From Methanothermococcus okinawensis (lineage in GTDB: Archaea > AGJL01 > Methanococci > Methanococcales > Methanococcaceae), in NCBI GenBank assembly GCA_015663075.1, contig DQSV01000053.1:1-42403 (forward strand): a stretch of 42,403 nucleotides of DNA, read 5' to 3'. The translations under genes were made by a program, and so were the position numbers. The notes under the pieces were generated by a model. That model made no database searches and was not told the origin of the DNA. It saw only the letters and a program-made list of their open reading frames with translations. Each line of letters begins with the position of its first letter. The first letter of the stretch is position 1. Shown piece by piece: positions 4,974 to 35,075 of the stretch.

Positions 4974-5373
4974 CGAATAAAATATTATAATAAATATTTA
5001 TTTATAGTCAATTATTGGTATTAACTTAATCTATAACATAAATAACATAACAAAAAGGATAAAACATTAATAGAAAGAAACATTTTAAATCCATATAATT
5101 TAGATTAATATAATACCATATGGTAAATCCTTTAAGTAGAATTCTCCTTTCTTTCAGTGCTTAGGAGCATAAGATGAATAATGAAGACATTTCTACATTT
5201 TATGTTTTCCTTCTTCTTAATTATATTATAATTTTAGATTTTTTATTTTAATTTTAATTATACTTTATACTTTATTTTTATTTTTTTAATTATTCTCTTT
5301 TTTAGGAAGTACTAATGAGAATTAAATTTTTTATTGATTATAAGTAATTTAAGATTATATTTTTAATAATTTA
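4974..5373. other. Intergenic spacer with repeat copy
   Basis: No gene is visible. The spacer holds one good copy of the hairpin repeat (listed separately) and, at about 5298-5340, a second shorter block (TTTAGGAAGTACTAATGAG) that resembles both the repeat core and the sequence at 26575-26620. Confidence 0.5.
5125..5215 (+). repeat. Intergenic hairpin repeat, copy A
   Basis: The core AGTGCTTAGGAGCATAA (5156-5172) forms TGCT-TAGG-AGCA, a perfect 4-bp stem with a 4-nt loop. Like the other copies it is followed by a T-rich block (CATTTTATGTTTTCCTTC) and long A/T tracts, and preceded by AAATCCTTTAAGTAG. It lies just past the 3' end of the RimK-type ligase gene on the opposite strand. Confidence 0.6.
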
Positions 5374-6234
5374 TTATGATTTACCATATTCTATTAAAAA
5401 CTCTGCAATTTTATAATCTACATCAATGCCCAAGTACTTAAACCCCTTTATACCAGGTACTGCATTTGTCTCAATAACATAATAGCAATCATCCTTTGAT
5501 GGAAGTATATCTATACCCATTATGTCTCCCTTCATGGATTGAGCGCATTTTAATGCCAACTCATTTAACTCTTCATTTAGTTTTATAGGTTCAATGGTTC
5601 CCCCTAAGTATAAATTTGTAATGAAATTTTTACTAACTCGACTGTATCCTCCAACAACTTCTTCCCCCACTACAAGTATTCTAATATCCTTATAAATACC
5701 CTTTTTACTGAAATTTATATATTCTTGGACTAGTGTTCCCTCCCATATTGCATTTTTAGTGTATTTTTTTAATTCTTCATCAGAGGTTATCTTTTTAACA
5801 GTTATCCCACACTTGGAAAAGGAATTTTTTAAGATCACAGGGTATTCTAAGTTTTCCCTTTCCATAAATCTTTTGGCATCTTCGTAATCCCTTACTATGG
5901 CTGTTTTTGGAGTATTTATTTTATTTTTGGATAATATTTTGATGGTTTTAAACTTATCAGAAGAATCATACACTGTTTTAAGATTATTGATAAAAGTACT
6001 ACCCTCACATTCTAAGGAGTTCAACACTTGCCAGGAGTACATTGTTAATCTATCTAAATAATTGCCAATACCACACCTTGGATGTATTATATCACTATCT
6101 AAGCGGAAATTCTTATCTACTATTAAATTACTATCTGATAGTAATAAAATTTCACATCTACTTCCTAAATTCTCTATGGCTCTTTTTAGAGCCTCTGTTG
6201 TTGAACTACCCTCTGGAGTTACAATTGTTATCAT
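5374..6234 (-). CDS. RimK-type ATP-grasp glutamate ligase (MptN- or CofF-like)
   Basis: The 286-residue protein has the ATP-grasp layout of the RimK family: an N-terminal Rossmann-like part (residues 1-85), then PVILKNSFSKCGITV (about 136-150, ATP-binding lysine and loop), LVQEYI (about 172), KDIRILVVGEEVVGGY (about 185-200) and the metal-binding YVIETNAVPGIKG near the C-terminus. In methanogens two members of this size are known. MptN adds alpha-glutamate to tetrahydromethanopterin to make tetrahydrosarcinapterin, and CofF caps coenzyme F420 with alpha-glutamate. The sequence alone does not let me choose. The gene is divergent from fsr, an F420-using enzyme, but that is not proof. The ATG at 6234 has only a weak AGGT upstream. 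Confidence 0.75.
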   Translation of the reverse strand: MITIVTPEGSSTTEALKRAIENLGSRCEILLLSDSNLIVDKNFRLDSDIIHPRCGIGNYLDRLTMYSWQVLNSLECEGSTFINNLKTVYDSSDKFKTIKILSKNKINTPKTAIVRDYEDAKRFMERENLEYPVILKNSFSKCGITVKKITSDEELKKYTKNAIWEGTLVQEYINFSKKGIYKDIRILVVGEEVVGGYSRVSKNFITNLYLGGTIEPIKLNEELNELALKCAQSMKGDIMGIDILPSKDDCYYVIETNAVPGIKGFKYLGIDVDYKIAEFLIEYGKS

Positions 6235-6295
6235 GATATAACCTAAGAAGAATTTTATATTATTATAATTATTAATTCTATAAAATAATATAAAA

Positions 6296-6315
6296 GTTTA
6301 TATATAAGATATATA
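6296..6315 (+). promoter_or_regulatory. Predicted fsr promoter (TATA box)
   Basis: The sequence GTTTATATATAAGATAT in the 154-nt divergent spacer is a good archaeal TATA box. It would place transcription start about 25 nt downstream, some 50 nt before the fsr ATG. The ligase gene on the other strand has its own weaker ATTTTATAG box in the same spacer. Confidence 0.5.
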
Positions 6316-6388
6316 TTTATTTATTATTAATAATAAAAAAAATAAAAAAATAATAATTTATTAAATAAATTTTTTAACGGTGAAATTA

Positions 6389-8254
6389 ATGTATGAATGG
6401 AAATTAAATGAGATTGTAGATAATGATCTATGTGCCAGTTGTGGTACCTGTGCCATAGTGTGTCCAAACAATATAGTGGTTTTTGAAGATGGCCCTAAAT
6501 TAAAGGAGGAATGTTTGAGAAAGGGACATGGCATGTGCTATGATATATGCCCAAGGGTCTCTTCAGGGGGCTATCAAATAAGAATTAGAGGAGATTTTAA
6601 AGAAAAAGAGGAGTACTACTATGGAAAGGGGGATATTGAAGGTCAAAATGGAGGGGTGGTTTCAACATTTTTAAAATATCTATTGGAAAATAAAAAGATA
6701 GATGGGGCTATAGTTGTAGGGGATGAATGCTGGAAACCAGTATCCCTAATAATCCAAAACCCAGAGGACATTGAAAAATCTGCAAAATCAAAATATGCCA
6801 TTTCAATACTTGATGCCTTGAGGAAGGCTGGGGAGATTGGGATTGAAAGGGTTGCAGTTGTAGGTCTTCCCTGTCAAATATCTGGTCTTAGGAAACTTCA
6901 ATATTTTCCATACTTGGCTAAATACGATGGAGAACTTGGTAAAAATGGAAAGATATTAAAATTACCAAAGATTCAATATTTAATCGGGCTGTTCTGTAAT
7001 AAGAAATTTAAGCAGAGAAGTATAGAAGAAATCCTTGAAAAAAATAATTTAAATATGGAGGATATAGAGAAGTTTGATATTAAAAAGGATAAGTTTGTAA
7101 TAACAACCTACAACAATGAAAAATATAGTATTCCCTTGGAAGATATTGAATACTGTGAGGGATGTAATGTTTGTAGAGACTTTGATGCTCAGATGGCAGA
7201 TATATCTGTAGGATGTGCCGGAAGTCCGGAAAATTACTCCACAGTAATAATAAGGACTAAAAAGGGAGAGGATATTAAAAATGCCATTGAATTAAAAGAG
7301 GGAGTAAATATAGAGTTTATAGAAAAAATGAGAAAATTAAAAATGGACAGATTTAAAAGGGAAATAGAAAGGAGAAGAAATAGTGGGGAAAAGATATCCT
7401 ACTATTGGATTACAGATTATGGAGGAGTGGGTAAAAGGGCGGATAACACTTATTTTATAAGAATAAGAGCAAAACCAGGCGGTTGGTACTCTACAGAAGA
7501 AATCAACGAAATAATAAATACAAGTAAAAGGTATAATGGTAAAATAAAGATAACGAATAGAGGAGCATTTGAAATTCATTGTATAGATCCCTATTACGTA
7601 GAGGAATTAGTCTTAGAACTTAACAAAAGGAACTTTATTACTGGCTCCGAAGGACCCCTTGTAAGGGCCATCCTTGCATGTCCTGGTGGTGGAAATTGTA
7701 GTAGTGGATTAATAGATACTAGTGAGTTAGGTGTAATTATAGATGAAAGGTTCAAAGAGTATCCTGCTCCATATAAATTTAAAATCGCAATAAGTGGCTG
7801 TCCAAATAAATGTGTAAGACCTCAGATTCATGATATTGGAATAGTAGGTGTTAAATATCCTGAGACAAATGAAAATTGTAATGGATGTGGAAGATGTGCA
7901 GATGTTTGTAAGGTTGAGGCCATAGATGTTAGGGGAGAAACATCCTATACAAACTATAATTCATGTATAGGTTGTGGAAAGTGTATTAGGGCCTGTCCCA
8001 ATGAGGGAAGGGATATAAAGGAAGAAGGGTACATGATATATGTTGGAGGAAAATCTGGAAGAGAAATAATAGATGGTATATCCATGAAGTTAATGGATAT
8101 TGAGGGGATAATTAATTTAATAGATAAGGTATTAAAGGTATATACTAAATATGCCCAAAAACCTCAAAGAGAGAGATTGGGGGCAGTTATGCATAGGATT
8201 GGTACTGGAAAATTCTTAGAGGAAGTTAAATTGTTAATGGATGGTGATGTATAA
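6389..8254 (+). CDS. fsr: F420-dependent sulfite reductase (Fsr)
   Basis: Fsr reduces sulfite to sulfide with reduced F420, detoxifying sulfite and supplying assimilable sulfur in methanogens. Two enzymes are fused. The N-terminal half is FrhB-like (F420 oxidation) with cluster cysteines at 15, 18, 21, 25 and CEGCNVC at 256-262. The C-terminal half is a dissimilatory-type siroheme sulfite reductase, with cluster/siroheme cysteines C431 and C437 (CPGGGNC), C471 and C475 (CPNKC), and an inserted double ferredoxin module (about 497-540: CNGCGRCADVCK, CIGCGKCIRACP). All expected cysteines are present, so the enzyme looks functional. The start is ATG 6389, because GGTGA (6379-6383) sits 5 nt upstream; the in-frame GTG at 6380 is part of that site. 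The product is 621 residues, the usual family size. Confidence 0.95.
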   Translation: MYEWKLNEIVDNDLCASCGTCAIVCPNNIVVFEDGPKLKEECLRKGHGMCYDICPRVSSGGYQIRIRGDFKEKEEYYYGKGDIEGQNGGVVSTFLKYLLENKKIDGAIVVGDECWKPVSLIIQNPEDIEKSAKSKYAISILDALRKAGEIGIERVAVVGLPCQISGLRKLQYFPYLAKYDGELGKNGKILKLPKIQYLIGLFCNKKFKQRSIEEILEKNNLNMEDIEKFDIKKDKFVITTYNNEKYSIPLEDIEYCEGCNVCRDFDAQMADISVGCAGSPENYSTVIIRTKKGEDIKNAIELKEGVNIEFIEKMRKLKMDRFKREIERRRNSGEKISYYWITDYGGVGKRADNTYFIRIRAKPGGWYSTEEINEIINTSKRYNGKIKITNRGAFEIHCIDPYYVEELVLELNKRNFITGSEGPLVRAILACPGGGNCSSGLIDTSELGVIIDERFKEYPAPYKFKIAISGCPNKCVRPQIHDIGIVGVKYPETNENCNGCGRCADVCKVEAIDVRGETSYTNYNSCIGCGKCIRACPNEGRDIKEEGYMIYVGGKSGREIIDGISMKLMDIEGIINLIDKVLKVYTKYAQKPQRERLGAVMHRIGTGKFLEEVKLLMDGDV

Positions 8255-8489
8255 TATATTTTATAATTTTAAATTTTTGTTATACTTTAGTTCCAAGTAA
8301 ATTATACAAAAAAGGAATATATAAAGAGAATAATGTAGAATTTCTAATTTTCATAAATGTTACTTCTTTTTAGGTGTTTTAAAATTTTTTAATTTTTTAT
8401 ATTAATCTTAATTGTTCTTTATTTTTATGGAATTCTTTTAAATTAGGTTTTATTATTTTTTATACTATTTCAAATAAAAAAATAAAAAA
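8255..8489. other. Spacer after fsr with a decayed repeat block
   Basis: No gene is visible. At about 8320-8400 the sequence GTAGAATTTC..., then ACTTCTTTTTAGGTG and TTTTAAAATTTT, follows the right half of the intergenic hairpin repeat (compare 34935-34982). The TTAGGAG core itself is missing. The T-runs may terminate fsr. Confidence 0.35.
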
Positions 8490-8556
8490 TACACTATATT
8501 TACTACGAAATATAGTAGTAAAAAAATTCTCCTTATCCACCATGGAATAAGGATTA
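8490..8556 (-). terminator. Tandem terminator-like hairpins at the end of the str gene group
   Basis: Read on the minus strand after the S10 stop: hairpin 1 is CCTTATTCC-ATGGT-GGATAAGG (8552-8531), followed within a few bases by seven T. Hairpin 2 pairs ACTATATTT (8493-8501) with AAATATAGT (8508-8516), 9 bp around a 6-nt loop, followed by TGTATTTTTTATTTTTTT. Inside hairpin 2 a competing pairing of TACTAC (8501-8506) with GTAGTA (8515-8520) is possible. Both fit intrinsic-type termination of minus-strand transcripts from S10. For fsr transcripts no T-run follows either hairpin. Confidence 0.6.
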
Positions 8557-8632
8557 GAAAAAAATAATAATTTATTGCAATAAATTTTTTATTACAATAA
8601 TATAACTTGCTTATGAAAATTAAATTTTAAAA

Positions 8633-8941
8633 TTAGCTTCTTAATTCAATTTCAATTTGCACTGCTTCAGGGACCCTTATCTTCATAATATGTTTCATAG
8701 CCCTTTCATCCGCCTCAATATCTATTACTCTTTTGTGTATTCTCATTGTCCATCTATCAAAGGTGGATGATCCTTCTCCATCTGTTGATTTTCTTGTTGT
8801 AATCCTTAATTTTTTTGTAGGTAGAGGAATGGGCCCTGCCATATCCACTCCTGTTTTTTCAGCAATTGCCTTTATTTGATTGCATACTTTGCTCAATTCT
8901 TCATGATCTGTACTACTTAATTTTATTCTAGCCTTTTGCAT
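8633..8941 (-). CDS. rpsJ: 30S ribosomal protein S10 (uS10)
   Basis: Protein of 102 residues, the normal archaeal length, ending in the conserved [31 protein letters not shown] is the long loop that reaches into the 30S head. It is the last gene of the str group, 117 nt downstream of EF-1A, the standard archaeal order. The ATG at 8941 has a strong GAGGAGAG site upstream. Two terminator-like hairpins follow. Confidence 0.95.
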
Positions 8942-9058
8942 AAATTATCTCTCCTCATTTAATTTTTAACAAAAAATTAATTTTTACTTTATTATAACTT
9001 TAAAAATAAAAAAATAAAAAAATTAATCATTTAGATTTATTTCATTTCTGAATATTAT

Positions 9059-10345
9059 TTATTTGTTCTTTGCCTTAACATCAATACACATACCTGCTGC
9101 AACAGTCATACCCATATCTCTGATTGCAAATCTTCCAAGTTGTGGTATTTCTCTTACATTTTCAAGTACCATTGGCTTTGTTGGTATAATTTTAACAATT
9201 GCAGCATCTCCTGTTTTTAAGAAGTCTGGGTTTTCTTCCTTAACCTCTCCTGTAGCAGGGTTCAATTTCTTGAGAAGTTCTGCAAAGGTACAGGCCACCT
9301 GAGCAGTGTGGGCGTGGAATACTGGGGTATATCCTGCTGTAATTACTGATGGGTGCTGTAAAACTACAATCTGTGCTGTAAATTCAGCAGCCACTGTTGG
9401 TGGGTTATCAGGATGTCCTACAACATCCCCTCTTTTAATATCTTTTTTACCCACTCCCCTTACGTTGAAACCTATGTTATCTCCAGGTTCTGCTTTTGGA
9501 ATTTGCTCGTGGTGGGCTTCAATGGATTTAACTTCTCCTGAAACTCCTGCTGGTTCAAATACTACCTTATCTCCTGGCTTCATAACACCTGTTTCTACTC
9601 TTCCAACTGGAACAGTACCTACACCAGTAATGGTATATACATCTTGAATTGGAAGTCTTAATGGAAGGTCCACTGGTTTTTCAGGTGGATTAAATGTATC
9701 TATAACTTCAACTAATGTAGGTCCTTTATACCATGGTGTTTTGTCTGATTTTTTAACAACGTTATCTCCATGGTAGGATGCTACAGGTACAAAGTTAATG
9801 TTTGCTGGGTTATATCCCAATATTTTTAATAGTTGGTTGGAAAGCATGTCCTTCATGGCCTTGTAATCCTCTTCACTGTAGTTAACAGTATCCATCTTGT
9901 TTATTGCAACAGCCAACTGATTTACACCAAGGGTTCTAATTAGGAATAAATGCTCCCTTGTTTGTGGTTGTAATCCTGTTTTGGCATCATTTACATCAAC
10001 TACCAATATTGCAGCATCAGCCTGAGATGCCCCCGTAATCATGTTTTTAATAAAGTCTCTGTGCCCTGGACAGTCTACGATGGTTACATCATATTTCTTA
10101 CTCTCGAATTTTTTATGGGCTATGTCTATTGTAACTCCTCTTTCTCTTTCTTCCTTCAAATTATCCATAACATATGCAAACTCAAATCCTGCTTTACCCT
10201 TTTCAGCAGCCTCTCTTTTTAATTTTTCCAACAACTGTGGGTCAATAGCACCACTGTCTAACAATAATCTACCAACTGTTGTGGATTTACCAGCATCTAC
10301 GTGCCCAATAAATGCAACATTTAGTACAGGTTTTTCTTTTGCCAT
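9059..10345 (-). CDS. tuf: Elongation factor 1-alpha (EF-Tu, archaeal)
   Basis: GTPase that delivers aminoacyl-tRNA to the ribosome. At 428 residues it is full length. The G-domain motifs are GHVDAGKST (about 14-22), DCPGH, and NKMD (about 149), followed by the two beta-barrel domains ([18 protein letters not shown], then the C-terminal HAHTAQVAC). The ATG at 10345 follows a near-perfect AGGAGGT, consistent with very high expression. The 252-nt gap after EF-2 is A/T-rich and large enough for a separate promoter. Confidence 0.97.
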
Positions 10346-10597
10346 GCTTTTACCTCCTAATTAAGGTTTTATCTTTTATATTTAATTAATATATTATATT
10401 TTTTGACTATTTAATTTTATTTCTAATATTTATTCTTTATTTTTTTTAATATTTATTTTTTTATATTTTATATTATTATTTTTGTTTTATTATTTTTATT
10501 ATATGGGCCTATAACCTTATAAAAATATTTTTATTATAAATTGCAATATTCAATATTATAAAGGGATATATATAATTTGTGGTATTCCACAATATAT

Positions 10598-12781
10598 TTA
10601 ATCTGTTTTTAATCCCTTTCTTTCCCTTATCTCCTTAATGATTTTTGATTGTAATTCATTAGGTACCTTCTCAAATCCTGCAAACTCTATACTCCACAAA
10701 CATCTACCCTGGGTAGCACCCCTAATTGCACCAGCAAATCCAAACATTTCTGAAACAGGAGCCTTTGATTTAATCAATGTCATATCTCCCTCCTGTTCCA
10801 TATCCAATATTTGACCCCTTCTGTTACTAAGTTCCTTCATTGCATCTCCCATATATTCTTGAGGGGTATTGATAAATACATTTTGAATAGGCTCCAATAG
10901 CACAGGTTTGGCCTGGGTTATGGCATCTCTTATACCAAATCTTACAGCAGGTATTAACTGAGATGGACCCCTGTGGATGGCATCTTCGTGGAATACTGCA
11001 TCCACTAATTTAACCTTTATTCCCTGACACTTTTCAGCTGCCAATGGACCATTTCTAACAGCCTCCTTGAATCCCTCTATTATTAACTCTCTTGCCTCAT
11101 CCAATTGGACAATACCCCTGGTCATGTTAAGGAGCATATTTCCTTCATATATTGACATTACCCTTTTAGCCTCCTCTTTATCCATTCCTGCCTCAATTAA
11201 TACCTTTTCTACTTCAGGTAATGTTTTCTTTTTGAAATCCTCATCTTTGATCTTACCCTCTTTATATGCTTGGAATACTCCCTCCTCCAATGGCTCAACT
11301 ACAAAGTATAACTTATTGTGTTTATTAGGAGATTTACCCTCCACCTCAGGTGATTTTCCAGTTACTGTCTCCCTATATACTACAATGGGCTCCCCAACTT
11401 CAACCTCAATGCCTGCATCCCTTCCTATTTTTGTATTGGTTATGACCTCTATGTGGAGTTCTCCCATACCACTGATTAAATGCTCCCCAGTTTCTTCATT
11501 AATCTCTACTCTAACGGTATTGTCCTCTTTAGCTATCTGTCTAAGTACCTCAATTAATTTTGGAAGGTCCTTAGTATTTTTAGCCTCAATGGCCACAGTA
11601 ATTACTGGTTCACTTACGTGAGTAATTGATTCAAATGGAGGTTCAAGAATATTATTTGGACTACATATGGTTTCCCCTGCACTGGCCTCCTTCAACCCGG
11701 TTATTGCACAAATATTTCCTGCTGAAACACTTGAAACCTGTACCCTTTCAGCACCCATGAATATGGCTACCTGCTGAGCCCTTACCTTTTGCTTTAGTCC
11801 CACTAAGTATAGTTCATCTCCCTGCTTTAATCTACCACTGAATAATCTACATGCAGATATTGCACCAGCATGCTTATCCATTATAATTTTTGTTATTACT
11901 CCAGCCAATGGACCATTGGGATCACAATTAACCATGGCCTTACCAATATCTGATTCCAAATCTCCCTTCCAAATGTTAGGAATTCTGTACTTCTGGGCTA
12001 CTGTTGGATTAGGCAAGTGTTTAATTACAATATCCAAGAGTACCTCATGAAGAGGAGCCTTTTGAGCAAGTTCCTTTTGTTTGTCCTTTTCACAGTAATT
12101 TATAATATCATTAAAGGATATTCCAGTTTTTTTCATAAATGGCACAGAAATAGCCCAGTTATGATATGCTGAACCAAATGCAACACTTCCATCCATAACA
12201 TTTACAATCCATTCCTTTTTAAATTCCTCGGGAGCCATCTTTTGAATTAATTTATTAATATCACTTATAATCTTTGTAAATCTGTTCATTAACTCCTCAG
12301 GAGTTAATTTCAATTCATTTAATAACCTATCTACCTTATTAATAAATAAAACAGGTTTTACCTTTTCTTTAAGGGCCTGTCTTAAAACAGTCTCAGTCTG
12401 AGGCATAACCCCTTCAACAGCACATACAACAACAACTGCACCATCTATGGCTCTCATGGCCCTTGTAACGTCTCCTCCAAAATCAACGTGTCCAGGGGTA
12501 TCAATCAGGTTAATTAAATATTCCTTGCCCTCAAACTCATGCACCATTGAAACATTAGCAGCATAAATGGTAATACCTCTTTTAGCCTCCTCCTCATCAA
12601 AATCTAAGGCTAACTGATCTCCAGCAAGATCCTTGGAGATCATCCCAGCTCCTGCCAATAGGTTATCAGATAGTGTAGTTTTACCATGGTCTATATGAGC
12701 ACATATTCCAATATTTCTAATTCTGTCATGCATTTCCATTAAACTTTTAACTTTTTCAACCATCTTTGCTCTTCTTCCCAT
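10598..12781 (-). CDS. fusA: Elongation factor 2
   Basis: Translocation GTPase of 727 residues, the length of other methanococcal EF-2 proteins. GTP-binding motifs are AHIDHGKTT (about 33), DTPGHVD (about 95) and NKVDRL (about 147). The diphthamide loop DAIHRGPSQ carries the modified histidine at H603, so a diphthamide pathway is expected elsewhere in the genome. The N-terminus [15 protein letters not shown] is typical for the genus group. The start at 12781 follows GAGGAGG. It lies 331 nt from S7 with its own TATA box, so it is probably transcribed separately from L30e-S7. Confidence 0.97.
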
Positions 12782-13112
12782 AATTTCCTCCTCAAAATAA
12801 TAATTATTTTAAATTTATTCTGGTTATTTATATTTCTATGGAATATATCCTATTATTATATTACATAGGTTTTATGTACATTTATTTAGATTTTTATATA
12901 TAATATCATATTTTATGAAATATTTATTGCAAAAATACTCAATATTATATAAATTTTACAAACAATATATATAATTTTAATTATCCTTTAAATACCTTAA
13001 TGTATTACAATTCTGCATTTATCCACATTAATACTTATTTAAATTATAATTAATAAAAATTAAATAAAAATTTAAATTAATTTAATTATATATATTAACT
13101 TAATTAAATTGT
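12782..13112 (-). promoter_or_regulatory. EF-2 promoter and leader region
   Basis: This 331-nt spacer between S7 and EF-2 holds no gene. On the minus strand TTATATATAAAAATC (about 12890-12905) is a strong TATA box and would give a leader of roughly 90 nt. A weak hairpin in the leader (CCTAT ... ATAGG) is possible. No other structure is visible. Confidence 0.5.
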
Positions 13113-13679: not shown

Positions 13680-13737
13680 TGTATCACCTTTTTATTTTTT
13701 AAACTATTTTTACATTTTTTTTAAATTATTTTATTAA

Positions 13738-14181: not shown

Positions 14182-14304
14182 TAATCTCACCTTTTTATTT
14201 TGTTATCATACCATTATGAAAAATTAAAGAATTATTATTTTATTTATTATAAATTTATAAATTTTTTATTTTTTTAATCATATTTTTTAGTATTTATTAA
14301 TTTT

Positions 14305-14919: not shown

Positions 14920-14929
14920 TAAATACCAC

Positions 14930-15238: not shown

Positions 15239-15269
15239 AATATATACCTCCTTCTCATTTTTTACTCCA

Positions 15270-15384: not shown

Positions 15385-16029
15385 TTTTGTATATCTATGT
15401 ATTTGAATATTAAAAAACATATAAGAATTATTAGGCAATAGGAATATATTTTTTAATAAAAATTTTAAACAATTATTAAAATTAAAATATTTAAAAATAA
15501 TATTTAAATCAAAAAGAATAATTTAATGAACATATATTTTGTATAAAAATATGCCGTATATGTCATATTATATACTACAATTATATAAAAATATTGTTAT
15601 ACTAAGAATAAATATACTTTAAAGAGGTTAAAAATCTTTAAGAGGAATAAAAATATAAATATAATAATTCTACTTAAAGGTTTTCTTTTCACTTCCAGTG
15701 CTTAGGAGCGTAGGAGAAATGGAGATAGTAGTAGGGAACTTCTGCTTTTTTAGTATTTATTTTCTCATATATCTTTAAGTATTTTATTTTTTCTCTTATA
15801 TTTTAAGATTTAGATTATTTTATTATCTTTATTTTACTTATATTATTTTTTTATTATTTCATTTTTTATATTAGGGAGGGATTTAGAAAATAATATAAAA
15901 TTTATTTTTAAAAAAATTATTACATGCCTGAATAACAGCATATATATATTACTTTAATGTTTTTAGAAGTTTCTTAAAAAATAGGTTTAAGAGAGTATGT
16001 AATTGACTATAAATAAAATTGGTGATATT
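15385..16029. other. Divergent spacer between L30e and aroC
   Basis: No gene is visible. It contains a short block TTAAAAATCTTTAAGAGG (about 15628), related to blocks at 30893 and 36201, then repeat copy B, then A/T tracts. An aroC TATA-like stretch, GCATATATATATTAC, lies at about 15939-15953. The end shares the GGTTTAAGAG...TTGACTATAA block with 3659-3700. Confidence 0.45.
15675..15795 (+). repeat. Intergenic hairpin repeat, copy B
   Basis: The core CCAGTGCTTAGGAGCGTA (15695-15712) forms TGCT-TAGG-AGCG, the last pair being T-G. It is followed by GGAGAAATGGAGATAG, AGTAGGGAACTTCTGC and T-rich blocks in the same order as copies C and D, and preceded by AAAGGTTTTCTTTTCAC. Confidence 0.6.
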
Positions 16030-21384: not shown

Positions 21385-22077
21385 TCAATTTTGTTTTAAA
21401 AATCTATCAATCTCCCTATTTTCATTCGCAAGTATGGTGACTCTACTATCATAGAAATCATCCATCAATCTATAATGGGTAAGTTCCTCCGCCCTTTTAC
21501 TAAGTTTCAATATCTCCTCATGTTTTAACATGTCCCCTAAGTTTAGCCTCCTTCTGGAGTATTCCACATTCATGTAGGACTTTAACTCTATGAAATGTGT
21601 ATCTGTCTTCTCATAAAGAGGGAGGAACTTTTCAATGTTGGTGTTGTAATCCCTTATAAGTGTGGTCCTTATACAGACTCTCCTCTTAGATTCAAGTATA
21701 TCCAAGATATTTAATATATTTTGCCAATGTTCCTTTTTTCCCCCACATATCCTTTTATAACTATCCAAGTCATAGGCATCAAGGGAGATATACAGTTGTG
21801 TGGGATCTATTTCCTGAATAACCTCAGTTAGAATACCATTTGACACTACAAATGTGGAGAGGCCTCTCTTATGGAATAGATTTATCAGTTCCCCTAAATG
21901 GGGATAGAGGGTAGGCTCTCCAGAAAGGGATATGGCAACATGCTTTGGAGTCAATAACTCCTTAAACTTTTCCTCCCCTATTCTATCTAAGATGCCTTTA
22001 TATCCCATTATAACTTTCCTATGCATCTCAAAGATGTCCTCTATATCCTCCTTAGGTTCCTTCGTAATCAGCAACAA
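21385..22077 (-). pseudogene. 5'-truncated Taw1/TYW1-like radical SAM protein (wyosine tRNA modification)
   Basis: The 230 readable residues align with the C-terminal two thirds of archaeal Taw1 (4-demethylwyosine synthase for tRNA-Phe): PKHVAISLSGEPTLYPHLGE, STFVVSNG, TQLYISLDAYDLDSYKRI, RTTLIRDYN and FIELKSYMNV. Intact Taw1 is about 310 residues. Missing here is the N-terminal part with the CxxxCxxC motif that binds the radical-SAM iron-sulfur cluster; the readable part has only two isolated cysteines. The frame opens at a TTG without a ribosome-binding site, with an in-frame TGA shortly upstream and then repeat copy C instead of coding sequence. A dead fragment left by a rearrangement is the simplest reading, so a complete copy should exist elsewhere. 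A short functional derivative is less likely. Confidence 0.7.
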
Positions 22078-22389
22078 AAATAATATATATCAATAGAAAA
22101 AGATAAAACATCAATAATAAGTAATACTTTAAGTCCCTCTAACTTAATCTAATATGAAGTATTTAATAAATAATTAGGGAAAATTACTCTCTCCAGTACT
22201 TGAGAGCATATAATGAGATAATAATAGGATTTTTGCTTTTTATGTGATTCTCCCTTTTTGAGTATTTTAAAGCCTTATTATTTTTTTATTATTTTATTTA
22301 ATATTTATCCCATATTTTATTTTTTTATTATTTTTTAATAGGATTAAGATTGTTGTTATTTATTATGAATAGTTTAAAACCATAATTGA
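22078..22389. other. Spacer between truncated taw1 and AK6 gene
   Basis: No gene is visible. The lost N-terminal coding part of taw1 is not found here in any frame. The spacer starts with ATATATATCAATAG, then AGATAAAACATC (about 22102), and is filled mainly by repeat copy C and its A/T tail. Confidence 0.5.
22165..22275 (+). repeat. Intergenic hairpin repeat, copy C
   Basis: The core CCAGTACTTGAGAGCATA (22193-22210) has a loop of TGAG instead of TAGG and one mismatch in the stem. About 100 nt align with copy D: AATTAGGGAAAATTACTC before the core, and TAATAGGATTTTTGC, TGATTCTCCCTTTTTGAG, TATTTTAAAG after it. It directly abuts the broken end of the taw1 fragment. Confidence 0.6.
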
Positions 22390-23004
22390 TTATTTTTTTA
22401 AAAAATTATTTTTGTTACCACAATCCATCATAAAAAAGTAATCCTCTAACCAACTAACCATACCATATTTAACCTTTTTATTATTAATTGCCTCAATAAT
22501 TTCATATACAATGGAGTCTATATCCCTGTTGGTGGTATCTATTTCATATACTAATATATTATTGTTTTGGAGCCTTTCCAAGGACTCAATAAGGCAAATA
22601 TCTAATATTTCCCCTTCTACATTTTCATTGATTTTATTCTTTGAATAATTTCGCTTTTTTAACCTATCCTTTACTATTTCAGGGTTACACCTTAGAACCA
22701 CTATATAATCCACATCAAGTAAGTGGCTAACATGTCCATCAATAATTATAAGGTTTTTTTTATGATTTAAAGAATAATTGTTTATATGATTGTTAAGTTT
22801 TTGGAAATCTATTACATAGGAATCCATATCTTCGTCCTTTTCAGTATATAATTTATTTTCAATCACTACCTTAGTTATATCTACATATTTAATATCGACA
22901 ATGTCCTGAAATTTCCACTTATAATTTTTCGTTAATTTTTCCATGAGGGCTTTAGAAACTGTAGACTTCCCCACTCCAGGGGTTCCTGTTATGGCCAATT
23001 TAAT
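22390..23004 (-). CDS. AK6/Fap7-type adenylate kinase, possibly starting at ATT
   Basis: Nucleoside-monophosphate kinase of the AK6 (Fap7) family, linked in archaea and eukaryotes to small-subunit ribosome maturation. Walker A is GTPGVGKST at the N-terminus. IIIDGHVSHLL, then YIVVLRC, is the NMP-binding and core region, and RLKKRNYSKNKINENVEGEI is the lid with the family ENVEGEI-like signature. Relatives begin M(K/R)(L/I)AITGTPG. Here the matching position is an ATT codon (23004), 4 nt after GGTGG (23013-23009), which suggests ATT initiation. The alternative is an ATG at 23025 giving seven extra residues with no ribosome-binding site. The C-terminal about 30 residues (KVKYGMVSWLEDYFFMMDCG) extend past the usual family end. 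Confidence 0.75.
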   Translation of the reverse strand: MKLAITGTPGVGKSTVSKALMEKLTKNYKWKFQDIVDIKYVDITKVVIENKLYTEKDEDMDSYVIDFQKLNNHINNYSLNHKKNLIIIDGHVSHLLDVDYIVVLRCNPEIVKDRLKKRNYSKNKINENVEGEILDICLIESLERLQNNNILVYEIDTTNRDIDSIVYEIIEAINNKKVKYGMVSWLEDYFFMMDCGNKNNFLKK

Positions 23005-25438: not shown

Positions 25439-25644
25439 GAACTATTAGAATAATAAATAAGAAAAATAATCAGTAAATAGGACTAAAAATTAATAGGATT
25501 AAAAATTAATAAATAATTATTAAGATAAAAATAAAAATAATAAAATTTAAAAATACTAGGAATAATAAAAAATAAAAAAAATAGGCACTATAGGTTAAAG
25601 TTTAAAATATTTTTTATTCATTTGAGTATAAAAGTATAAAAAAA

Positions 25645-26469: not shown

Positions 26470-26785
26470 ATTTTCACAGTGGTTTTCAATTTTAATAATT
26501 ATCAAATTTAATTATAAAAAAGATTCTAAGATTATAACTTTAAAAAATTTATTTATAATAATTATTTTTTACATTATTTTTTTTGGAATCCTTAGTGAGA
26601 ATTAAGGCATTTTTTTGTATTTTAATATAATAATTTGTTTAAATTAAAATAAAATTAAAAATAAAAATAAATATTAAAAAAATAAAAAAATGTTGGAAAA
26701 ATATTAACAAGAAAAATATAAAAAAATCAAAAATTAATTAAAACCTATTTAAAAATCCATTAAAAAAATATAGTATTGTGGTTTT
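26470..26785. other. Divergent spacer with hairpin CCTTA...TAAGG
   Basis: No gene is visible. At about 26590-26607 CCTTA-GTGAGAAT-TAAGG forms a 5-bp hairpin followed by CATTTTTTTG, a terminator-like arrangement on the plus strand with no gene upstream on that strand. The same block (GAGAATTAA flanked by T-runs) occurs at 5298-5340. A-rich sequence and a TATA-like AAAAATATAGTATTG follow before the NodU-type gene. Confidence 0.4.
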
Positions 26786-28378: not shown

Positions 28379-28390
28379 ATTAGGGAAAGA

Positions 28391-29305
28391 ATGAATATCC
28401 ATCCAATACCCATAGAATCTAAGTATATTAAAAAAGGAGAAAATCATATAAATGAGATAATAACCTCACTAAAAAGGGAGATAAATAAAGGATTAAACAT
28501 TGAAGATGGAGATTTTATAATAGTAAGTGAGAAATTTGTTGCAACCGGGGAAAATAATCTTATAGATGAAAGTAATGTAAAAGTGGGATTTTGGGCTTAC
28601 TTCTGTTATTACTGGTCAAAGTATCTATGGGGCTATATTTTGGGGCCATTATTAAAAACAAGGCCCGATAGAATAAAAAATATTAGAAAAATGCCAAAAA
28701 AGGAAACTTTAAAGCATAAGCAAACTGTAATAAATTATGTTGGACTTAGATATGCTTTAAAACCTGCCTCTGAAGGAGGAGTGGATTTAACAAATGTTCC
28801 AGGAACCTATGCTGCATTACTTCCAAAGAATCCTCAAAAATCCGCAGAAAAAATATATAATGCCATAAAAAAAGAGTTAAATTTAGATATGGTAGTTATG
28901 ATAATAGATACTGATGCCACATATAAATTTTTTAAATGGTATATCACGGCATTACCCTGTGGAATAGAAGGCATCATCTCAAAGATTGGTGTTTTAGGTT
29001 ATATCCTTGGAAAATTGGCAGGTTTATTAAAGGTTGGAGGGCTATGTGGAGCCACGCCATTGGCCATTGCAGGAAATAGCATATATAAAAAATATTCCAT
29101 GGAGGAGATACTTTATATTGCCAATATGGCAGATAGATCCCAGGGGGAGCCCACAAAATCAATACATAATATAATGAAGAAATACAATACCTTTGAGATT
29201 ACTGAAGATATATTGGAAAAATTAAGCCATAAACCGATAGTATTTGTAAAAAATATAAAGAATATGGAGGAAAATGAACATAAATCTAATTTTAAGAATA
29301 TTTGA
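28391..29305 (+). CDS. CofE-like (F420-0:gamma-glutamyl ligase superfamily) protein
   Basis: Protein of 304 residues related to CofE, which adds glutamates to F420-0. The recognisable part includes INKGLNIEDGDFIIVSEKFVATGEN (about 33-57), corresponding to the CofE motif with SK and EG, and the Asp-rich MVVMIIDTDATY (about 175-188), followed by CGATPLAIAGN. It differs from true CofE (about 250 residues) by an insertion at about 60-115 (FWAYFCYYWSKYLWGYILGP, basic KNIRKMPKKETLKHK) and by a hydrophobic stretch near 205-225. A paralogue with another substrate is more likely than CofE itself. The coupling to the carbamoyltransferase gene suggests a shared pathway. Confidence 0.7.
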   Translation: MNIHPIPIESKYIKKGENHINEIITSLKREINKGLNIEDGDFIIVSEKFVATGENNLIDESNVKVGFWAYFCYYWSKYLWGYILGPLLKTRPDRIKNIRKMPKKETLKHKQTVINYVGLRYALKPASEGGVDLTNVPGTYAALLPKNPQKSAEKIYNAIKKELNLDMVVMIIDTDATYKFFKWYITALPCGIEGIISKIGVLGYILGKLAGLLKVGGLCGATPLAIAGNSIYKKYSMEEILYIANMADRSQGEPTKSIHNIMKKYNTFEITEDILEKLSHKPIVFVKNIKNMEENEHKSNFKNI

Positions 29306-29363
29306 AATTTTTATTATTAATAAATTAACGGGAATTAATATTAAAACTATAAACGACTCTTTT

Positions 29364-30500
29364 CTATATAAAAAATCTCCTCTTTAAATCAATGGCTCCA
29401 AATTCACACATTTCATGACAACAATAACAATTTATACATTTTTTTAAATCTATCTTCAAATTATCAATAGATATGGCCTCTACAGGGCATATATATTGGC
29501 AAACTTTACATTTTTTACATTTTTTTCTGTTTATTTTAGGTTTTTGAACCATTACTGAAAATATTAACTTTACAATACTTGGGGGCATTATGGAAGTTAA
29601 ATAGTATGTATCAGGCTTTTTAAATTTTATTCGATCTATTTCCTTAAAACTTACCTCCTTTTTAACATTCTTCTCTAATTTTATAATTTTATAATTTTCC
29701 TGCCAAATATCTCTTTTTTTATAGTTTCCATTGTTAATTAAAATTTTATTTGTTATAATATCCATAGGGTTGTATTTTATATAGTAAGATGCAAATATAT
29801 CCACTGCAAGGGCATCCTTGGATGCAATTACTATCTTAGAGTTTATGGGATTTCCATTGCTGGGTCCATTGCCCTCCATACCATATATACCATCCATTAT
29901 TGTAATCATTTCCCTATTTTTACCTATGATATTATATAGTTCTACTAAAAGTTCTGCAAAATTATATTCCTTAGGATATTGCCCATGAAGTTTTGGTTTT
30001 AATCCTCCAGGAATACAACCATATAGGTTTTTAATTGCTCCAGTGTATTTCATAAGAATATGGGTTTTTAACTTTGGAAGGTTTATTATTAAATCACTTT
30101 CAAGGACAGTTTTTGGAAGTATTATTTCCTCGGTATCCAATATCTTTACTTTAACAATCTCGTCCTTCTCAAAGGGTTTGCAATTTATATTGTACTTCCT
30201 ACATACTTCCTCTATTTTGGAAACTTCAAAGGATTTTTTTGTGGAATATCCTGAAGAATCTCCCACAATAATTTTATTTCTATCCACTCCCTTATTTAAT
30301 AGGTATTTAATAATCCACTCCAAAAACTTCGGATGTGTAGTAGCACACCTATCTGGAGGATATGGACCTAAAACATTTGGTTTAACAAGTATTTTGTTGT
30401 ATTTCTTTAGATTTATGTTTTTAAATACTAAATTTAATATTTCATCTTCATTATTAAGTAAATAATAATCTTCTATCTCTTCATAATATATATTTATCAT
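29364..30500 (-). CDS. DUF362 protein with C-terminal double ferredoxin domain
   Basis: Protein of 378 residues. The DUF362 part (about 1-280) shows KILVKPNVLGPYPPDRCATT, GDSSGYSTKKSFEVS, INLPKLKTHILMKYTGAIKN and MDGIYGMEGNGPSNGNP, all typical of the family. The last 60 residues hold two 4Fe-4S motifs, CKKCKVCQYICP and CINCYCCHEMC. The molecular function of DUF362 is not known; it is common in anaerobes. The ATG at 30500 is chosen because GGTGG lies 5 nt upstream; a TTG at 30512 is less likely. Convergent with the CofE-like gene (58 nt between stops). Confidence 0.88.
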   Translation of the reverse strand: MINIYYEEIEDYYLLNNEDEILNLVFKNINLKKYNKILVKPNVLGPYPPDRCATTHPKFLEWIIKYLLNKGVDRNKIIVGDSSGYSTKKSFEVSKIEEVCRKYNINCKPFEKDEIVKVKILDTEEIILPKTVLESDLIINLPKLKTHILMKYTGAIKNLYGCIPGGLKPKLHGQYPKEYNFAELLVELYNIIGKNREMITIMDGIYGMEGNGPSNGNPINSKIVIASKDALAVDIFASYYIKYNPMDIITNKILINNGNYKKRDIWQENYKIIKLEKNVKKEVSFKEIDRIKFKKPDTYYLTSIMPPSIVKLIFSVMVQKPKINRKKCKKCKVCQYICPVEAISIDNLKIDLKKCINCYCCHEMCEFGAIDLKRRFFI

Positions 30501-31052
30501 TATTGCCACCAATGGTACTATAGTAAATTCCGAGTATATTTATGACCAAATTAATAATTTTATAACAATTAAAAAAATATATTAAATTGAATATTAAATA
30601 TATATTAAAAAATTAATCTTAATGAAAAAATTATTAATGAAAATATAGTTAAGTGCTTAATATTAACTTACCTCCCAAGACTTTAAAAAAAGGGGAGAGA
30701 CTAAAATCTATTCCCTATAAAAAATTTGAAATGTTCCTCTGTTAGTTTATATGGCCTTTTCTATAAATTTTAAAAACAAATTTGTAGTGGTTATATATTA
30801 TATTCTCTATATTTTTATTTTTTAGTTGTAATTTTTATTTAAAATGTATTTCATATTAATATAAAAAATGGATCACAGTAGGTTGTATAATATATAAAAT
30901 CAAAACTATAGAAATCTTCGAGATGAATAAAAAAAGATATTAAGTAAAATACTTGTAGTAATATAATACTTAGACTTTTCTTAGAAAAAATAGTATATTC
31001 GACTACAACAATAAAATAAAAAAAATAATATATTAAGATTTGATTATTATTC
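30501..31052. other. Spacer with shared repeat blocks, no gene
   Basis: The spacer holds CTCCC...GGGGAG, a possible 5-bp hairpin (about 30672-30698). The block at 30736-30775 (CTGTTAGTTTATATGG...) repeats at 34718-34760. The block at 30893-30936 (AAAATCAAAACTATAG, then AATCTTCGAGATGAAT) repeats at 36201-36244 and weakly at 15628. TATA-like TATAATATATAAAATC precedes the last block. Confidence 0.45.
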
Positions 31053-31637
31053 TTACTTTCCTAATTTTTTATTTGCCCTAATACTTGGTCTTACTTTTTC
31101 AGCACCTTTACCCTTATTTCTTAATCCTCTACCTTTTTTACCTGCTGATGTTAATCCTCTAAATGCTCTACCCTTATGGGTTCCATTGCATAACCAATTA
31201 TACTTTGGATCTCTTTTAATTGAAGGATGATTTGGATCTACCAATATTACTTCGTACCATTTTCCCTTTCCATCTTCGCCTACCCAATAGGAATTTAATA
31301 CCTCCATGTTTGGATATTTCCTTGAGGCTCTCTCTTCTGCTATTCTTTGGATTGATTTAGCCATTGTAATCTTCTTTACTCCCAAGGTAGCGGGCTTTTT
31401 GGAACCTTTTGGCCTTGGTTTTCTTAGCCCTCCCCTTCTAACCTTAACTCTAACTACAATTATACCTTGTTTTGCCTTGTATCCTAATTTTCTGGCTTTA
31501 TCTATTCTTGTAGGTTTTTCAATCCTTACAACTGCAGGTTCCTTTCTCCACTCCTGCATTCTTGACCATAACAATTCCTTAACATAGGTTTTTTTTGGAG
31601 TTTTCCAGGCCTCTTTAACATACTTATACATACTCAT
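31053..31637 (-). CDS. rpl15e: 50S ribosomal protein L15e (eL15)
   Basis: Protein of 194 residues, the usual archaeal length. It has basic RNA-binding stretches: [20 protein letters not shown] at the start, [20 protein letters not shown] in the middle, and the C-terminal [20 protein letters not shown]. It sits in the large subunit near the exit region. The ATG at 31637 follows GGAGAT. It stands alone, not in a ribosomal operon, and is preceded by a long structured leader with its own TATA box. Confidence 0.95.
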
Positions 31638-31689
31638 AGTATCTCCTTTTTCATTCTTTTGCTTTATTTTTTCTCTAAAAAATTTTTAT

Positions 31690-31806
31690 TAGTTTAATCT
31701 CTGCAATCACTGTTTATGGGTTCAGCCCTTGGCCACATGCCCTACGGGTTTTATACCCGTCTCTGATACACTCTGTATAAAAATACTTAATAGGGTTTCC
31801 CTACAT
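31690..31806 (-). ncRNA. Structured RNA / leader upstream of L15e
   Basis: A G/C-rich island in very A/T-rich surroundings. On the minus strand, in order, it folds into TAGGG-AAA-CCCTA (31803-31791), ATACA-GAG-TGTAT (about 31781-31769), ACGGGT-ATAAA-ACCCGT (31760-31744), and a composite GGG...GGCC-AAG-GGCT...CCC (about 31742-31718). It ends about 50 nt before the L15e ribosome-binding site and begins just after a strong TATA box, so it is transcribed toward L15e. It could be an autoregulatory leader or a small RNA gene (H/ACA-like or new). It has no tRNA arms. Confidence 0.6.
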
Positions 31807-31823
31807 AGTATATTAATTTAACG

Positions 31824-31838
31824 GTTATTTATATATAC
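31824..31838 (-). promoter_or_regulatory. Predicted TATA box for the L15e leader RNA
   Basis: On the minus strand AGTATATATAAATAACC is close to the archaeal consensus. It would start transcription about 25 nt downstream, near 31806, at the first hairpin of the structured leader. Confidence 0.6.
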
Positions 31839-31986
31839 TGGTTGTATGATTATATTAATAAATAAAATATTTAATAATTGTTATATGTAAAACATAATGA
31901 ACATAAATTTATATAGTGCAATATTAATCTTTAAACATATCAGAATTATTTTGCAATAATTTCCATTTATTTTTTGGTGAGATACT

Positions 31987-32403
31987 ATGGATAATCAATA
32001 TGACTATGAGTTATTATTAAAAAGAGCCATTAGCCAACTTCCAGAGGAGGTATTTAAGGACGTAAGGTTTGAAGTTCCCTCTGCAGAGAGTTTTGTAGAG
32101 GGAAATAGAACAGTAATAAAAAATTTCAGAGATATTGCAAAGGTTATAAATAGAGATATCCAATTCTTTGCAAAGTATGTAATGAAGGAGTTAGGTACAG
32201 CAGGAGATGTTGAGGGCCAGAGATTATTACTTCAAGGTAAGTTTGGAAATTATATTATAAACAGTAAAATTAAAAATTTTGTGGAAGAATATGTATTATG
32301 TCCAGAATGTGGAAAACCAGATACTAAGATTATTAAGGAGGGCAGGATCCACTTCCTTAAGTGTATGGCCTGTGGAGCCATGAAACCCATTAGATTAATT
32401 TAA
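31987..32403 (+). CDS. eif2b: Translation initiation factor 2 subunit beta (aIF2-beta)
   Basis: Protein of 138 residues. The N-terminal helix (DYELLLKRAISQLPEEVF) contacts the gamma subunit. The alpha-beta core contains EGNRTVIKNFRDIAKVINRD and LGTAGDVEGQRLLLQGKF. The C-terminal zinc ribbon has CPECGKPD and CMACGAMKP. It is part of the aIF2 complex that brings initiator tRNA. aIF2-alpha is also in this window, at 35076, but transcribed from another unit. The ATG at 31987 follows GGTGAG. A TATA-like AAATTTATATAG lies at about 31905. Confidence 0.96.
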   Translation: MDNQYDYELLLKRAISQLPEEVFKDVRFEVPSAESFVEGNRTVIKNFRDIAKVINRDIQFFAKYVMKELGTAGDVEGQRLLLQGKFGNYIINSKIKNFVEEYVLCPECGKPDTKIIKEGRIHFLKCMACGAMKPIRLI

Positions 32404-32793
32404 AATAGTATTTTTTATATTACCTTATTTTTTAAGTGAATGGTAAAAAGGATTATTATCAAATCCATCTCTATTTTATCTTAACTGTACAGTTCACAAC
32501 TATATAGCCTAAAAAACCATATAATAGTTATAAACCTTAATTTCAAAGAAATCGCCATAAAAAATAATAATAAAATTTAAAAAAAATAAAAAAATAAGGA
32601 ATAATTAAAACAAAAATCTTAAGTATTTAGGTTATCTTTATTATTTATTTTTTAATTCGATTATACTTTTTTGAATTATTTTTATTTTTTTATATTGTAA
32701 ATTGTAGATTTAAGAATTATGTTTTTGATAAATTATTTATAATAGTTTCTCAAATTATAGTGACTCAAAATTTTTTATATTATACTATGAAAA
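32404..32793. other. Convergent spacer after aIF2-beta
   Basis: No gene is visible. T-runs directly after the aIF2-beta stop may terminate it. The segment about 32706-32745 (TAGATTTAAGAATTATG, then TTTTGATAAA) resembles the tail block shared by the 3659 and 15988 spacers. Otherwise A/T-rich simple sequence. Confidence 0.35.
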
Positions 32794-34239
32794 CTACAGC
32801 TTACCGAGGGCCCCTAAGAATTTTTTTGTTCTCTCCTTTTTTATGGAATTATATTCTTCTAATTTTTTTAGGTCTATATTATTTTTCTTTAAAATGGATT
32901 TTATTTCATCTATTGGTGCTATGCTACTTAAAATTTCTTCAACTTCTTTCCTATTATAGTCATACTTTTTAACCACATCCCAATCATGTACTAAATAAAG
33001 GGCTGCTCCTCCAATATTTTTTAAGGGAATGTTGTACTTTGGCAATACCCTTTCAAATAAAAACTTTATATCTAAAACATCTAAGGGATTTACTCCTTCA
33101 ATCCTCATCCATTTTAAATTAACCCGAGAGGGAGTAATAAGTATGGTGGGAAACATATTGGATCTAGCCCTTTCATCAGGAGTATTATATAGGTAGTACT
33201 TAAAAATATCTTGAGAAATATATTTTATAACTATATCAAAGGAAAGTTTTTCAGATATTTCCCTTTCAATCCTGAGGGATTTCTCCAACTCATGGATTGG
33301 CCTTCCTTCAATATATAGTCCCATTTTTTCCAATATTTCATTCATCTTTATTCTTTTTACTTTTAACTCTTCCATAACCCTAATGTCAATTATTCCCCCC
33401 TCTACTTCACCTTCTTCAAAATCTACTATTGTACTTCTATATTTATCAATCAAATTTCTTTGATGCTCTGATAATTCAATCTTTAACTTTTTTTCTATTT
33501 CATATTCCACTTCCTCCCAGTAGGCCATTAGGTATGTCAAAGATAGGGTTTTCTTTACATGGCTGTCAGTTAGTAGTTTATTCTTAGAATAATTTTTCTT
33601 TAATGAGGTTATTAGGGCATCCCCATAGTTTTTCTTAATATATTCTTCATAATCCTCATCTTCTATTTTTACCCTTTTAAAGGTTTTTTTTCCATTATTC
33701 ATTACAATAAGGGTCATGGTAATAGAACTTAATACCCCTCTTCCCTGGGATTCAAAGACATTTAAAAGTTTTTTACATGTTTTAATAAATAATGGAGACA
33801 TTTTAGACAATAATTCTTTATTTGAACCGTCATAAGGTAAAAAATATATTATTCTTTTGTTTCCAGCAGAATCCTGCAGGTGTCCTAATGCTATTTTATG
33901 TGCAATTATGGCATATTTTACTCTTTCCAGTACTCCTTTTTTTTCATCAACTATTCTTCGGAGATAGGACGAATAGGATTTTATTTCATAGATATCTCCT
34001 TCATCACATCCCTTTAATTTGCCCACTCCAACATAGGGGGTGTCAAAACCCTGCAATTCCATTTTTTCCTTTAATTCTTCCAATACTTCTAAATTTTTCT
34101 TTAATGTTTCTATAAGTTTATTATGTGTGCTATTGTCTAAGTTAGTATTCTTTGAAAATTTTGAGGAAATTTCTTCTCTAAATTTTAATAAATCATCTAA
34201 AAATTCGTTGCACTTTTTTATTAGAAGGCTACTGTCCAT
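32794..34239 (-). CDS. DUF530 family protein
   Basis: Protein of 481 residues, which I assign tentatively to DUF530, a family of large methanogen proteins of unknown function. It is hydrophilic, mostly helical, with a coiled-coil-like N-terminus (about 1-65, Lys/Glu/Leu-rich). No membrane segment, no metal cluster and no nucleotide motif is visible. The C-terminal part (about 335-440: ERARSNMFPTILITPSRVNLKWM, NIGGAALYLVHDWDVVKKY) looks the most conserved-like and compact. The ATG at 34239 has only a weak GTGA upstream. The neighbour Nop10 starts about 270 nt upstream in the same direction. Confidence 0.6.
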   Translation of the reverse strand: MDSSLLIKKCNEFLDDLLKFREEISSKFSKNTNLDNSTHNKLIETLKKNLEVLEELKEKMELQGFDTPYVGVGKLKGCDEGDIYEIKSYSSYLRRIVDEKKGVLERVKYAIIAHKIALGHLQDSAGNKRIIYFLPYDGSNKELLSKMSPLFIKTCKKLLNVFESQGRGVLSSITMTLIVMNNGKKTFKRVKIEDEDYEEYIKKNYGDALITSLKKNYSKNKLLTDSHVKKTLSLTYLMAYWEEVEYEIEKKLKIELSEHQRNLIDKYRSTIVDFEEGEVEGGIIDIRVMEELKVKRIKMNEILEKMGLYIEGRPIHELEKSLRIEREISEKLSFDIVIKYISQDIFKYYLYNTPDERARSNMFPTILITPSRVNLKWMRIEGVNPLDVLDIKFLFERVLPKYNIPLKNIGGAALYLVHDWDVVKKYDYNRKEVEEILSSIAPIDEIKSILKKNNIDLKKLEEYNSIKKERTKKFLGALGKL

Positions 34240-34346
34240 AATTTCACATGAGAAATATTGTAATTAAGGAAACTATACTGAGAGACCCTATTATTCAATT
34301 TATTTTAAAAATTATTAAATTAATATTTATTAAAGATTTCAAAGTT

Positions 34347-34508
34347 TTATTTAAGTCTTAAAGATTTTTTTAACATCCTTCTATATTTTCCATATCTATC
34401 CTCTATGGAGAATCTTGGTGGTTTAGTGGTTATGGTTTTTTCATTACAAAAGTTGCAATAGCCCTTTAAGGTATATCTATCGCATTTTGGGCACTTTCTC
34501 ATTCTCAT
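34347..34508 (-). CDS. nop10: H/ACA ribonucleoprotein protein Nop10
   Basis: Small protein of 53 residues that scaffolds the Cbf5 pseudouridine synthase in archaeal H/ACA complexes. The zinc ribbon is CPKCDRYTLKGYCNFC (two CxxC pairs), followed by the conserved PPRFSIEDRYGKYRRMLKK tail that lies on Cbf5. The start is the ATG at 34508 (MRMRKCPK), with AAAGGA 5 nt upstream; the open frame continues 16 codons upstream, but that part has no site and no homology. Nop10 is often paired with aIF2-alpha in archaea, and here aIF2-alpha is indeed the next gene upstream, but 567 nt away with repeat copy D between them. Confidence 0.93.
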   Translation of the reverse strand: MRMRKCPKCDRYTLKGYCNFCNEKTITTKPPRFSIEDRYGKYRRMLKKSLRLK

Positions 34509-35075
34509 AATATTCCTTTTAACATTTTTAGAGATAGTATTTATTAGATTATACAATATTAGATTATATAAAGTACATAGTCTTAACTTATATTCTCAAT
34601 AGATTAAAAAATATAGTATATTTTATTAACCTTTAAAGTTAGAATCTTTTAACCTATTACATTCTAAATATGGGTAAAGTAGAATCCTATACCTTGGTAT
34701 AATATAGATGGCAAGATTTTTCTGTTAGTTTAGAGGGTTTTCCTTTTAAAAATTTGAAAAATAAGTTAATTATGTTAATTATCCTTTTTACTTTTTATTT
34801 ATATATGAATAATAAAGATAGATGTTTTAAGTCCTACTTTAGTTTAAGTATAACATTCATAATACAATATAGCTAATCAAAGGATTTTACTCGTTCCCCC
34901 GGTATTTAGGAGTATTATGGAGATTAATGGTGGGAATTTTACTTTTATGTATGGATTCTCTTTTAGATATTTTAAAATTTTAAACTATTCTATTTTATTA
35001 TTTAATTTTTAATTAAATTTTTATTATTTTTTAGTATTATTATTTTTAATTTTATTTTTATCTTATTTCTTCAAA
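34509..35075. other. Spacer separating aIF2-alpha from Nop10, filled with repeats
   Basis: No gene is visible. Shared blocks are 34630-34669 (matches 3394-3433), 34718-34760 (matches 30736-30775) and repeat copy D. A TATA-like TTTATATATGAATAATAAAG (about 34796) precedes AGATGTTTTAAGTCC (about 34821), a block that is also in copy C. These two genes are often adjacent in archaea, so the spacer looks inserted or expanded. Confidence 0.5.
34872..34982 (+). repeat. Intergenic hairpin repeat, copy D
   Basis: The core GGTATTTAGGAGTATTATGG (34901-34920) forms TATT-TAGG-AGTA. Compared with copy A (TGCT/AGCA) the stem pairs G-C and C-G are replaced by A-T and T-G, so pairing is kept. TTCCC (34894-34898) can also pair with GGGAA (34932-34936). 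The right arm ATTTTACTTTTATG, GGATTCTCTTTTAGA, TATTTTAAAATTTT follows the same order as copy C. Confidence 0.6.

Follow-up and report, generated by a model that had tools for sequence, protein, structure and literature searches.

Intergenic repeats of Methanothermococcus as probable, mostly eroded miniature elements mobilised by an IS630-family transposase

Introduction

The miniature inverted-repeat transposable elements (MITEs) of prokaryotes, among them Correia, ERIC, SM1-SM4 of Sulfolobus and Chunjie, are short, non-coding, multi-copy sequences with inverted repeats that lie mostly between genes. They are known from Sulfolobus, haloarchaea and other archaea, and the accessible part of a review gives copy numbers of 25-44 for each SM family and of up to 711 for ERIC, and names no family from the Methanococcales (PMC10969869). 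Here we analyse repeats in the spacers of a 42,403 nt stretch of Methanothermococcus okinawensis DNA (contig DQSV01000053.1 of assembly GCA_015663075.1; hereafter the window), which in all probability are mostly old and eroded copies of a MITE that was mobilised in trans by an IS630-family transposase and inserted at TA dinucleotides. Like the families named above, this one includes many truncated copies, and its mobilisation would likewise have occurred in trans.

A preliminary description of the window had assigned four spacers (copies A to D) to one family with a common core between an AAGG-rich left arm and a T-rich right arm, all on the plus strand, and had read them as either small RNAs or decayed mobile elements. 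The grouping, the strand, the core and the arms were all confirmed, and it is the second reading that was borne out, as MITEs of IS630 type with terminal inverted repeats (TIRs), TA duplication, empty sites and an autonomous partner. A candidate RNA family is thereby replaced by a documented transposon family with a partner enzyme, a target site and empty sites. We found no description of MITEs in Methanococcus or Methanothermococcus in the open-licence literature, and the AD-155 single-cell genome paper (PMC8417812) does not mention transposons. This kind of element is well known and, to our knowledge, the present family is undescribed.

Ends of the element and its empty sites

The borders of the repeat were clearest in G007 (Methanothermococcus sp. 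SCGC AD-155-C09), a close relative of the window's organism, where 42 aligned young copies had sharp borders with inverted repeats at both ends. The young copies, more uniform than those of the window's own genome, are ~290 bp long, contain no gene and are bounded by TIRs of ~28 bp (TATAGTCAAGnACATAAT...TTTAAAC); the class I unit in this genome starts with TATAGTCAAGnACATAATaaTTTAAAC and ends with GTTTAAnnAATTATGTtCTTAACTATA, the one being the inverted repeat of the other. The TIR pattern had 288 matches in G007, 18 in G006 and 14 in the assembly of the window's organism (G000; 1.1 Mb, 82% complete), compared with 0 for the reversed control. In G007, 49 full copies with paired TIRs, all of class I, measured 261-402 bp with a median of ~290 bp. 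Open reading frames (ORFs) of at least 60 aa overlapped few copies and were mostly short. A second subfamily, class II, to which copies A, C and D belong, is older and longer, carries an extra 5' stretch, and has ends that are eroded or degenerate forms of the class I repeats.

In the young G007 copies the core lies ~75 bp inward of the left end; the right half of the element is the T-rich arm. As the copies can be aligned with one another far to either side of the core, the repeat unit must be larger than the 90-120 bp first proposed for it, and it indeed spans 250-360 bp in the window.

Two class I copies of G007 face empty sites with conserved flanks in G006. At the first (L152:5479-5782, empty in L182), the flanks are 93-96% identical and join in the empty state as AAATAAAA-TA-ATTATAAAA (AAATAAAATAATTATAAAA), whereas the filled site reads AAATAAAA-TA-TAGTCAGG...TTTGACTA-TA-ATTATAAAA. 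The second (L147:2041-2301, empty in L186, AAAATAA-TA-ATTTATAAAA) gave the same outcome. Thus, at two sites, both of class I, a single TA is present when empty and a TA on both sides when filled, and comparison of the filled and empty states places the ends of the element at TAGTC...GACTA with duplication of TA. No target duplication beyond TA was found in the 49 full G007 copies or at the two empty sites. Most flank pairs involving L148 paired one repeat with another instead of orthologous sites and were left out of account.

An IS630-type partner element

A search for IS630-type DDE domains in five genomes of the genus gave matches in G007 alone. The best match, to DDE_3 (PF13358), lies at G007:C32:2194-2595 and is flanked by exact TIRs at 1595 and 2708, 1114 bp apart. 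This 1.1 kb partner element (L225 901-2016) has the same ends as the MITE and contains two ORFs, 159 and 181 aa long, which overlap each other and match residues 2-132 and 142-296, i.e. the two halves, of the NCBIfam model NF033545 (transpos_IS630). Their match to DDE_3 had an E of 9.3e-28 (97 bits). ORF B scored 126 bits against a cut-off of 100, and ORF A 97.6 bits on the complementary part of the model. The two ORFs overlap by 4 bases next to an A run, an arrangement that would suit a frameshift. G007 further contains another DDE ORF that is nearly intact, as well as several decayed ones (contigs C12, C44, C20, C86, C102 and C79), so that it apparently harbours one or two complete IS630 elements along with several decayed ones.

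The family thus resembles the IS630 family in that the MITE and the 1.1 kb element share TIRs, the partner's two ORFs jointly cover the IS630 transposase model, and TA is duplicated at two MITE sites; it differs in that the window repeats carry no transposase gene and have only ends of ~20-28 bp in common with the autonomous element. In the mechanism that we favour, a DDE transposase of the IS630 (IS630/Tc1/mariner) family would recognise the ends TAGTCAAGnACATAAT...ATTATGTnCTTAACTA and insert the element at TA with duplication of this dinucleotide, as the two empty sites indicate, and the shared ends suggest that such a transposase would mobilise the MITE in trans.

Several points weigh against this reading. 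The window's own assembly (82% complete) yielded no IS630-type transposase, and the interior of the MITE does not derive from the 1.1 kb element, with which it shares the ends alone. The TIRs of class II copies, among them A, C and D, are eroded, and what ties these copies to the family is the resemblance of their interior to class I together with their degenerate ends. Furthermore, the antisense orientation bias described below is equal in young and old copies, and an insertion bias is a possible cause of it.

Copies in the window

Profile hidden Markov models (HMMs) detected eight copies or fragments in the window, together covering 3.7% of its bases:

1836..1903, plus strand: class I 5' fragment (class I HMM positions 3-67, E 2.4e-4)
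3477..3687, plus strand: core-deleted class I MITE (HMM 3566-3684; exact 3' inverted repeat at 3668-3685, 0 mismatches)
5022..5350, plus strand: copy A, class II (class II HMM positions 62-398, E 2.9e-47; model R1 5123-5232, E 1.4e-17)
8313..8434, plus strand: partial class II copy, from the core to the T-rich arm (class II HMM, E 2.5e-14)
15658..16011, plus strand: copy B, class I (class I HMM 15658-15889, E 2.7e-30)
22064..22423, plus strand: copy C (class II HMM, E 5.2e-41)
32623..32728, plus strand: weak class I 3' fragment (class I HMM positions 182-296, E 9.7e-5)
34808..35058, plus strand: copy D, between the aIF2-alpha and Nop10 genes (class II HMM, E 4.8e-33)

The segment noted earlier at 5125-5215 is the middle part of copy A. 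The 3' inverted repeat of copy B (15994-16011; TIR pattern on the minus strand with 2 mismatches) adjoins the aroC ORF at its 5' end. Four partial copies had also been suspected: those near 1890 and 8320 were recovered, the one near 5298 proved to be the tail of copy A, and the one near 26575 was not recovered by the HMMs.

Abundance and distribution

The DNA read consisted of the stretches around copies and of 197 kb of G007 picked regardless of copies. Within the window the core pattern matched six times at up to two mismatches compared with 2.35 expected, a moderate excess over chance. In the whole of its assembly the pattern matched 27 times at up to one mismatch and 87 times at up to two, the latter far above chance given 28 matches for the reversed pattern. 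A model of sequence alone, derived from 21 copies, gave 114 matches in the same assembly at E<=5, ~100 of them at E < 0.01; the repeats are real.

In the 197 kb of G007 the profile HMMs detected 63 copies or fragments, whereas the reversed G007 sequence gave no match. They occupy 7.3% of the bases at ~0.32 per kb, i.e. about one every 3 kb, a density that sets the family apart from the prokaryotic MITEs cited above and makes G007 a dense case for an archaeon. Extrapolated to the 1.7 Mb of G007, this would correspond to ~500 copies and fragments. When 40 related genomes were searched, strong matches were confined to the same genus, with many copies in G007, G006 and G001 and one in G004, while the scores in other Methanococcales among these genomes were weak and near chance. 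The family has undergone a massive amplification in one clade of Methanothermococcus. As to the closeness of the genomes, the aIF2-alpha proteins encoded on G007 contig C44 and in the window share 94% identity. The strong copy in the complete genome of G004 is of class I (L063 1501-1621; G004:C1:348018-348138), all other matches there being weak, and may be a solitary copy or a recent arrival.

Near-identical class I copies are located at contig ends of the window's assembly (C3, C19 and C41; L009, L013 and L018), and the repeat therefore probably breaks this assembly, so that the copy number is a lower bound. The family probably breaks assemblies in general, and it can mislead small-RNA searches in these A/T-rich genomes.

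Copies lying side by side, or adjoining copies of different subfamilies, were seen at L055 342-593, at L157 2366-2862 and in L137 and L147 near 2040-2760, and suggest repeated insertion into or beside older copies. Elsewhere in L157 (4559-4660; G007:C73), eight TIR-like matches at an exact spacing of 12 bp represent a 12-bp tandem repeat that resembles the TIR start.

Conservation and folding of the core

If the repeats were a family of small-RNA genes, a plus-strand transcript with a stem-loop around the core and the T-rich tail as its end would be expected. Such a reading could draw on the conservation of the core GTGCTTAGGAG in both subfamilies, on the T-tracts, which could end transcripts, and on copies found by their left or right arm only, in which the core, when sought, was still present at a median of ~2 mismatches of 13. 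However, in young copies the core and the 3' inverted repeat are conserved to nearly the same degree (93% versus 94%), which argues for no special constraint on the core, and 5 of the 54 TIR-defined copies have no core. A special constraint on the core was accordingly rejected, the copies found by TIRs only or by one arm only showing a mild excess at most.

Folding analyses were equally negative. With alignments of 77 or 29 copies RNAalifold predicted no consensus pairs; with 21 copies it predicted only a 5-bp stem, in which no double changes occurred. The stem TGCT/AGYA, for which covariation had been proposed from the difference between copies A and D, paired in 87.1% of cells over 77 copies compared with 88.4% in shuffles and showed 1 double change against 7.5 expected, so that the difference between the two copies was not sustained in the larger set. 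Single copies folded no better than their shuffles (z −0.9 to +1.5), and no Rfam family matched the window above the gathering score. With single-strand folds, RNAalifold on three alignments, pair counts and Rfam all negative, and with transposon ends on the copies, we rejected the small-RNA reading, which now appears extremely improbable. The family shares with repetitive extragenic elements and small-RNA families its intergenic, degenerate and multi-copy nature, and differs from them in lacking a conserved fold and in possessing transposon ends and empty sites.

Orientation and T-tracts

The copies are strongly asymmetric, with 5.9 T5-tracts per copy on the plus strand versus 0.9 A5-tracts. 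In a first count, restricted to copies of the window's assembly with both neighbours known, 46 of 58 left neighbours were directed away from the repeat. This prompted the idea of an element retained for an outward promoter serving the gene on its 5' side, and the A/T-rich 5' end would suit this role. The larger count comprised 289 copies, drawn from three genomes and flanked on both sides by genes called by ORF length alone, and was split by the arrangement of the neighbours. Of the 181 copies between tandem genes, antisense copies outnumbered sense copies by 149 to 32 (p = 3e-19). Convergent (61 copies) and divergent spacers (47 copies) differed little. The restriction of the bias to tandem pairs, and the absence of any excess in divergent spacers, are contrary to promoter function, and the promoter-carrying element was rejected as very improbable.

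Transcription in Methanococcus maripaludis is terminated at U-tracts with the help of aCPSF1 (PMC8716108). The simplest account of the antisense bias is the loss of sense copies that cut off downstream genes: the T-tract-rich plus strand would act as a terminator in Methanococcales, and sense copies between co-directional genes would be selected against. Such selection would yield the 4.7:1 antisense bias and would also fit the window, where all copies are on the plus strand beside genes that are mostly on the minus strand. The bias of these T-rich copies thus offers a natural test of the constraint that U-tract termination places on archaeal spacers.

The one-sided T-tracts, the non-random orientation and the U-tract- and aCPSF1-dependent termination of Methanococcus would also be expected of domesticated terminators or insulators, which the host retains for T-tract termination or as a block to read-through. 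In that case, however, sense copies behind genes should be favoured, yet it is these that are depleted; convergent and divergent spacers are used about equally, and copies are gained or lost between close species. We consider such domestication improbable. It is slightly less improbable, and still unlikely, that the MITEs have come to serve across the genome as U-tract terminators sorted by orientation, which shape the borders of transcription units as well as antisense transcription; if this were true, transposon bursts would rewrite operon structure between sister species.

Neighbouring genes

The repeats had been described as lying only between transcription units, which does not apply to copies D and C. 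Copy D lies inside the conserved aIF2-alpha/Nop10 gene cluster, whose spacer measures ~530 nt in the window, ~130 nt in L090 and ~20 nt in L091. L090 was considered as a clean empty site for copy D and dropped, since ~70 nt of A-rich sequence in its 131-nt spacer align with the spacer of the window and could represent a remnant; L091 provides the cleaner comparison.

Copy C adjoins, on the upstream side, a truncated tyw1-like gene (21385-22077, minus strand), from which the first ~100 codons, and with them the radical-SAM cysteine region, are missing. Homology to the intact tyw1 of G006 and G007 starts at window position 22063, at the left edge of copy C. In G007 the N-terminal part of the gene is intact and includes the cysteine-rich radical-SAM region; G006 likewise has a long frame (325 aa). 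As G007 carries a related element at the same place, before the intact tyw1, the insertion probably preceded the truncation. A second, full-length tyw1 is present in the window's own genome (G000:C74:18324-18992), with a frame of 318 aa that is 69% identical to the paralogue in the window.

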